Below are positions 18,676-20,547 of a stretch of 46,213 nucleotides of DNA, piece by piece (within the stretch, counting starts at the first letter, position 1; the number at the start of each line of letters is the position of its first letter). The stretch is from Bacteroidales bacterium (lineage in GTDB: Bacteria; Bacteroidota; Bacteroidia; Bacteroidales; UBA932): NCBI GenBank assembly GCA_017961175.1, contig JAGCXV010000026.1:1-46213 (forward strand), in the 5' to 3' direction. A program made the position numbers and the translations under genes. The notes below the pieces were generated by a model. It was not told where the DNA came from and did not search any database. It saw only the letters and a list, made by a program, of their open reading frames with translations.

Positions 18676-20547
18676 TTACAGCAGAGGGAATGTCTTCTCA
18701 AGGCCGATGGAATGAGAGCCTTTTATGAGTATCGTCTTGTTTTTCAGAGGATTCTTCTCCAGATAGGCTATAAGGGCCGGAGTGTCCTGGAACAAAAGCA
18801 CTTCCGAGCTGTCCTTTGCGGCCTTGATGCCGGATGATTTCCTGGTGTGGAGTTCCTTGTAGGCCTTGGCGAATTCTTCTCCCACAAGCATGACTTTTTC
18901 AGTCTGCATCTTCAGGGCCTGTTCCAGTATGTTGCGGTGCTCCTTCTGGGATTCTGCTCCAAGTTCTCTCATATCGCCGAGCAGGAGAACTTTCTTGAAT
19001 TTGCGGCTGGCCAGCTCAAGGCTCTGGAAACTTTCCAGAGAGGCCTTCATGCTGGTTGGATTGGCGTTGTAGGTGTCCTTGATAAGGATGTTGTGCCTTG
19101 TCTTGGTCATCTGTGAGCGGTTGTTGGACGGCTCGTAGGATGAGACGGCCTTTACTGCATCCGATGTAGGCACGGCGAAGTATGTTCCAATGCTTATTGC
19201 AGCCAGGACATTGTCGGAGTTGTAGCTTCCAATGAGGTTGGTCCTGATCTTTATCATCTTTCCGCCCTTGCTTCCGGAAGGGTCAGCGATTTCAAGTTTA
19301 AGGAAAGGATCCTTGTCCGTGTTAGGAAGCAGACGGGCGCTGTTGCTGGTAAGGCCGTAAGGCACGATCTGCATCTCAGGACGCTTTTCAGCCATTTCCC
19401 TGAGCAGAGGATTGTCTGTGTTTACAAATGCTATCTTCTTGTGCTCCTGGAGGTTGTCGTAGAGCTTGCCCTTGGCTTTCATTACACCTTCCAGAGATCC
19501 GAATCCCTGTAGATGGGCCTTGCCTATGCTGGTGATCAGGCCGAATGAAGGGCAGACGACGGAAGAAAGTACGGCTATGTCTTCAGGATGGGAGGCTCCC
19601 ATCTCCACAACTGCCACTTCCGTATCCTTGTCTATGCGGAGGAGTGTCAACGGAACGCCTATGTCGTTATTGAGATTCCCCTCGGTGGCAACTACCTTGT
19701 ATCTTGTGGAAAGTACGGCGTTTATGAGTTCCTTAGTGGTGGTTTTTCCGTTGGTGCCGGTAAGTCCGATTACCGGAATCTTGAATTGAAGCCTGTGGTG
19801 CTTTGCCAGCTGCTGGAGAGTCTTCAGGGAGTTGTCCACGATGATGACTTTCTTCGGGAAGTCTTTCTTAGCCTGCTTAGCCTTGGCCTTGTTGTCTGAA
19901 ATAACATATGCGGCTCCCTTTTCCAGTGCCTGGAGGAGGAAGTCGTTTCCGTCGAAGTTCTCTCCCTTGAGAGCCAGGAACATGCAGCCTTCCTGAATCT
20001 TGCGGGTATCTGTGCACAGGCCCGTGGTCTTCTGGTAAAGGGTGTAGAGCTTGTAGATGTCAGGCTTGCCGTCTTTGGAGCAGATCTTGGAAACGGAAAT
20101 GTTGTTGGCCTTCACTCCAAGGCCTGTGGAACCGAATCCGCCCTCTCCGCGGAGAGTCTCGGACAGTTTTTCCACCTGCTGCCACTGTACCTGGGAATAT
20201 TTAGCAATCACCATCTGCGCTATCCTTTCACCTGGTTTTATGGTGAATGTCTCCTTTGAAAGGTTTACTAGGATGACCTTTATTTCTCCGCGATAATCCG
20301 CATCTATGGTGCCCGGAGCGTTGGCTACCGTAATGCCGTGCTTTGCGGCCAGTCCGCTTCTCGGACGGATCTGGGCTTCATAGCCTTGAGGAAGTTCTAT
20401 GAAAAGGCCTGTAGGCACTATGGTTCTCTCCAGTGAGTGGAGTTCAACCGGGCTTTCAATGTTTGCGTTAAGATCCATTCCGGCCGATAGGCTCGTGGCG
20501 TATTTCGGCAGCGGGTAGGCAGACTGGTTAACTATCTTTACTATCAT
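18676..20547 (-). CDS. dUTPase-MurF fusion protein
   Basis: One uninterrupted 623-residue frame. Residues 1-142 are a complete trimeric-type dUTPase with all five motifs: AGMDL (22-26), RPRSGLA (61-67), [10 protein letters not shown] (79-88), PGERIAQM (105-112), GEGGFGSTG (134-142). A linker of about 15 residues leads to a complete MurF (UDP-MurNAc-tripeptide--D-Ala-D-Ala ligase), about 160-623: TDTRK (169-173), ALKGENFDG (182-190), P-loop GTNGKTT (254-260), EMGASH (295-300), and later 'YNANPTSM'. I know MurF-Alr fusions in Bacteroidota but not Dut-MurF. It overlaps the flippase stop by 4 bp. Confidence 0.93.

Follow-up and report, generated by a model that had tools for sequence, protein, structure and literature searches.

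The question raised by this locus is whether a dUTPase and a MurF ligase encoded in a single reading frame are indeed one working enzyme and, if so, how the two came to be joined. The window, that is, the whole stretch of DNA analysed (46,213 nucleotides of a Bacteroidales contig), carries the frame on the minus strand (18676..20547, stop codon included); it starts with ATG, encodes 623 amino acids and contains no internal stop codon. Residues 1 to 142 (20122..20547, minus strand) form a dUTPase domain, residues 143 to 162 (20062..20121, minus strand) a linker and residues 163 to 623 (18679..20061, minus strand) a MurF domain. The Pfam profile PF00692 (dUTPase) matched residues 12 to 142 with an E value of 4.4e-34, and three Mur ligase domains were matched at residues 175 to 251, 263 to 452 and 477 to 612. 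With the NCBIfam profiles, TIGR00576 (dut) scored 183.6 bits against a cut-off of 102.55, and TIGR01143 (murF) covered residues 179 to 620 with 379.8 bits against a cut-off of 288.6. All five conserved dUTPase motifs, for which we assume the numbering 1 to 5, are present, with motif 5 at residues 133 to 142, and the MurF part has TDTRK at 179 to 183, the P-loop at 261 to 274 and EMGASH from residue 315. The preliminary description of two complete enzymes in one polypeptide was thus borne out by both profile scores, by intact motif sets and by the uninterrupted frame, and the computed mass of 68.3 kDa agreed with the roughly 69 kDa it had expected. Among the best 60 of 109 matches to PDB chains, no best stretch ran across both halves; each chain matched one half.

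The fused frame was found in 21 of the 39 genomes of the genus (the window's own included), and separate dut and murF genes were found in 17; the remaining genome (G035, 73% complete) had neither a dUTPase nor a MurF above cut-off. In 19 of the 21 fused genomes one stop-free match covered the protein entirely or almost so, reaching residue 621 or 623, and the other two rows end at contig edges, G030 losing its 5' end and G028 stopping after residue 231. The junction (20062 to 20121) is uninterrupted in all 21, including G024, a single-contig genome of 2.23 Mb that is 95% complete. Twelve of the fused genomes are metagenome-assembled, labelled Bacteroidales or Bacteroidia, and come from several hosts and projects; four have a ruminant-stomach source (water buffalo rumen and omasum, goat omasum and yak rumen). 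An artefact of assembly or binning might be suspected because the named relatives are metagenome-assembled, but the junction is in frame and constant in length across 21 genomes, among which one is on a single contig and the named ones were sampled from several hosts in several projects; this makes an artefact hardly credible, and we rejected it. The fusion of dUTPase and MurF is confirmed as genuine.

The motifs of both enzymes are conserved across the fused rows. dUTPase motif 3 (IDADYRGE) is identical in all 21, motif 4 is present in all with I/V changes, motif 5 (GGFGSTG) is kept in all, one row having A for E, and motifs 1 and 2 were found in 20, the row of G030 being truncated by the contig end. 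The P-loop and the EMGA, YNANP and KGS motifs of MurF occur in all 20 rows that reach them, the row of G028 ending before them, and the motif columns hold small substitutions only, such as N to S in one P-loop.

A separate murF or dut elsewhere in the fused genomes, a point raised in the preliminary description, was not found, save for a phage-like dUTPase in G027. PF00692 gave a single match in 20 of the 21 fused genomes, the exception being G027, whose second dUTPase (locus L128, 6172-6672) lies in a phage-like stretch beside RecT-, SbcC- and DnaC-like genes. The dUTPase profile PF08761 had no match in the three fused genomes tested (G000, G024 and G027). Where the MurF of a fused genome is whole (20 genomes), TIGR01143 exceeded its cut-off of 288.6 bits only once per genome; its other matches there stayed below 90 bits, which is what other Mur ligases should give. 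The fusion seems to be the sole copy of both enzymes in the cell, and this claim leans on the one-contig genome G024, most genomes being incomplete.

Outside the genus, no other stop-free Dut-MurF was among the matches listed for 179 genomes of the family, for 393 genomes sampled from the order (E limit, 1e-100) or for 395 genomes sampled from the phylum (E limit, 1e-85), although, with limits this strict and with weaker scores falling outside the listed matches, a rare divergent Dut-MurF could escape. One-frame matches running through both domains were seen in 33 of the 179 family genomes outside the genus, each with one to three internal stops, and in G180 a one-frame match runs through both domains in part. 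Twelve loci whose frames were unusually long or extended (a part of all odd rows) were read for hidden fusions, which were dismissed, for the dUTPase and MurF motifs searched for were never in one open frame. In one unfused relative (G004, locus L026) murF was matched in two separate pieces, perhaps through an assembly error. No report of Dut-MurF came up in a title-level survey of open-access journal papers. As far as sampled within the phylum, dUTPase-MurF joins two familiar enzymes in a combination of domains that is new, and it is restricted to one clade.

A single origin is indicated by both domains. In a MurF tree of 65 rows (20 fused, the fragment from G028 left out), the fused rows lie on one side of one branch with support of 100/99, and this branch was recovered in 100% of 200 bootstrap trees; in a dut tree made by a quick method (64 rows, 21 fused), they form one clade with an SH-aLRT value of 99. 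Repeated fusion was rejected, both trees needing one change only. The neighbourhood of the two genes is older. Of the 179 family genomes from other genera, 105 have a listed position for both genes (compared by eye); dut adjoins murF in 92 of them (34 of these being one-frame rows), the two are 1.3 kb apart in one (G076), and in the other 12, which belong to genera g6, g8, g13, g20, g23 and g25, they sit on separate contigs. In these six genera the genes were on different contigs in every genome with both places listed (n = 12), so there dut and murF either became separated or were never neighbours. In other families, seven MurF loci were inspected, and no dut was found within 1.5 kb alongside murF. 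At 21 loci outside the genus the dut and murF matches are 18 to 84 nt apart, a sample biased in that most were chosen for one-frame matches, with L061 of uncertain family. Among the 17 unfused genomes of the genus, eight have 22 to 66 nt between the matches and nine have about 900 to 975 nt. The longer gap (L023, L024, L025, L027, L031, L108, L111, L112 and L115) holds a gene of about 290 amino acids, which by reading of its sequence has two CxxC ferredoxin-like repeats and a nitroreductase-like body. The preliminary description had suggested that murF was captured behind dut and then fused. That murF came to adjoin dut stands, but this took place long before the fusion, and a recent capture gives way to an older side-by-side arrangement, which is widespread in the family without being universal.

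The fusion would then have come later, within one genus. Its ancestor would have had the flippase, dut and murF as neighbours, and loss of the dut stop codon and of the murF start codon would have turned the old spacer into a linker. In unfused relatives dut ends one or two residues past motif 5, and the murF ATG lies 15 to 24 residues ahead of TDxR (16 loci parsed); the fused linker is therefore probably made up of the dut end, about a dozen residues of the old spacer and the first residues of MurF minus its methionine. A derivation of the linker from the gene of about 290 amino acids was discarded, as nothing recognisable was seen when the spacers were inspected by eye.

The surroundings of the fused gene are compact. 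A gene for a patatin-like phospholipase (22102..24480, minus strand) is the first of a tight string and ends 1 nt ahead of the likely ATG, at 22100, of a MOP-type flippase gene (PF01943; 20544..22142, minus strand), which lies immediately upstream of dut-murF and whose 3' end overlaps the start of the fusion by 4 nt (ATGA). Downstream is an esterase gene (PF00756, CBM_48; 17502..18701, minus strand) with a likely true start, ATG, at 18674, 1 nt past the fusion stop. Given this spacing, with the starts at 22100 and 18674, the four genes are probably transcribed as one unit. A scan for promoters and terminators was uninformative, its counts matching those of shuffled sequences (11 versus 10.8 and 12 versus 11.6). 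Two adjoining DUF3298 genes on the minus strand (15727-16587 and 16611-17486) are likely a tandem duplication. The order of flippase and dut, which the preliminary description called typical in Bacteroides, is old: a flippase relative was found upstream on the same strand, within 5 kb or less, in 13 of 18 dut-only loci, which may include family members. A relative of the flippase at an E value of 1e-25 or below was present in 135 of 149 sampled Bacteroidales genomes, and 134 of these had exactly one match. Canonical MurJ gave a strong match (PF03023, E < 1e-30) in only 2 of 198 genomes, and TIGR01695 had no match in G000 and G024. The flippase beside dut-murF may be the lipid II flippase of Bacteroidales, but some PF03023 match over the family cut-off was found in 117 of 198 genomes, nearly all weak, which counts against it; a survey at the level of titles brought up no claim of this kind for such a flippase. 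The clustering of MurF at the membrane that the preliminary description put forward is conjectural, as sharing an operon with a flippase gene does not place dUTPase-MurF there.

We favour, with a probability of about 0.8, a working bifunctional enzyme that arose by one fusion event within one Bacteroidales genus. As both active sites are kept, both activities are expected from sequence: the protein is predicted to hydrolyse dUTP to dUMP and to join D-Ala-D-Ala to UDP-MurNAc-tripeptide, and both domains would be active and made together. Since the fused genomes have no other MurF and no other dUTPase bar the phage-like one, it would also supply both needs of the cell. dUTPases of the TIGR00576/PF00692 type are homotrimers with shared active sites, in which motif 5 closes the active site of the neighbouring subunit. 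The fusion would probably adopt this form, the trimer carrying three MurF units on the C-terminal arms of the dUTPase, at a fixed 1:1 dosage.

If the frame instead yielded two working proteins, by cleavage of the linker or by an internal MurF start, the fusion as such would matter little. At least one ATG, GTG or TTG, the codons that we counted as starts, occurs in 11 of the 21 linkers, so that some separate MurF could arise there, the window's species included (its linker has one GTG, three residues past motif 5). Moreover, the linker evolves faster than both flanking domains: for the linker, dut and the 60 MurF codons that follow the linker, pN/pS, descriptive only as the pairs are non-independent, was 0.125 (45 pairs), 0.047 (36 pairs) and 0.093, respectively, among ten close relatives, and 0.289 (210 pairs), 0.128 (190 pairs) and 0.214 (210 pairs) over all pairs, where pS is high (0.72 to 0.80). 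However, ten linkers, that of G024 among them, have none of these codons, ATG was found in two only (G027 and G032), and no start is common to all fused genomes. All 21 fused rows have 36 residues between motif 5 and TDxR, the GK at residues 160 and 161 is likewise invariant, and pN/pS well below 1 points to purifying selection, all of which would be needless for a disposable cleavage site. Two separate products are, in our judgement, quite unlikely.

What, then, could one working bifunctional enzyme offer the cell? We know of no metabolite or intermediate common to the dUTPase and MurF reactions, so fixed co-expression of the two, without metabolic coupling, is the simplest reading of the benefit, and regulation is the boldest. 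A bolder reading, which we consider unlikely, is a functional complex in which tethering makes MurF a trimer that is stabilised, positioned or regulated by it, with uridine nucleotides as one conceivable regulator, and which couples the supply of DNA and wall precursors. It would fit the conserved length and sequence of the linker and the retention of the fusion in a clade whose MurF domains go down to 64% identity to that of the window, and for the MurE-MurF fusion PMC6420597 and PMC4929429 discuss a role in channelling. Such coupling is harder to square with two reactions that share no known intermediate, and with the one-frame arrangements outside the genus, whose internal stops indicate that fusion is not generally favoured. 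Its most specific form, in which MurF has come to rely on the dUTPase half as a trimeric scaffold, the conserved linker fixes three MurF units around it and the uridine-nucleotide or oligomer state tunes wall and DNA precursors together, is somewhat less likely still.

A bifunctional dUTPase-MurF would exemplify how neighbours in an operon can end up as an obligate bifunctional enzyme. Losing this one protein should impair DNA-precursor hygiene and wall synthesis alike, and related species with unfused genes provide a natural comparison. The Mur fusions named in the available text of PMC6420597 and PMC4929429, and MurF-Alr, unite enzymes of the wall pathway or of amino-acid supply. Here, a sole and presumably essential MurF is bound to the sole dUTPase, with no known metabolite in common.

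Among known systems, the MurE-MurF protein of Bordetella pertussis (NF008896) is similar in that MurF is the C-terminal half and neighbouring genes were joined, but its partner is the enzyme that acts just before MurF in the wall pathway, whereas here it is a dUTPase of nucleotide metabolism; NF008896 scored 369.5 bits against a cut-off of 1023, and residues 1 to 142, where a MurE half would lie, are dUTPase. PMC6420597 describes the B. pertussis product as one bifunctional protein with an elongated, flexible shape and states that non-consecutive steps are joined in some Mur fusions (also PMC4929429). The MurF-alanine racemase fusion (NF008897) likewise has MurF within a two-enzyme polypeptide, but there MurF is N-terminal and its partner is Alr; NF008897 scored 245.4 bits against a cut-off of 804 without an Alr half in the fusion, and no alanine racemase domain was matched in it by Pfam at an E value of 0.001 or below. 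With the trimeric dUTPases (TIGR00576/PF00692) the fusion has the entire domain and its five motifs in common (PDB 8y1q is matched at E = 4.3e-50), but 8y1q (150 amino acids) ends two residues past the matched stretch, whereas the chain of the fusion continues into MurF. With the MurF ligases (TIGR01143; PDB 1gg4 and 4ziy, 452 and 474 amino acids) it shares the three Mur ligase domains and their motifs, to which it adds the N-terminal dUTPase that they lack.
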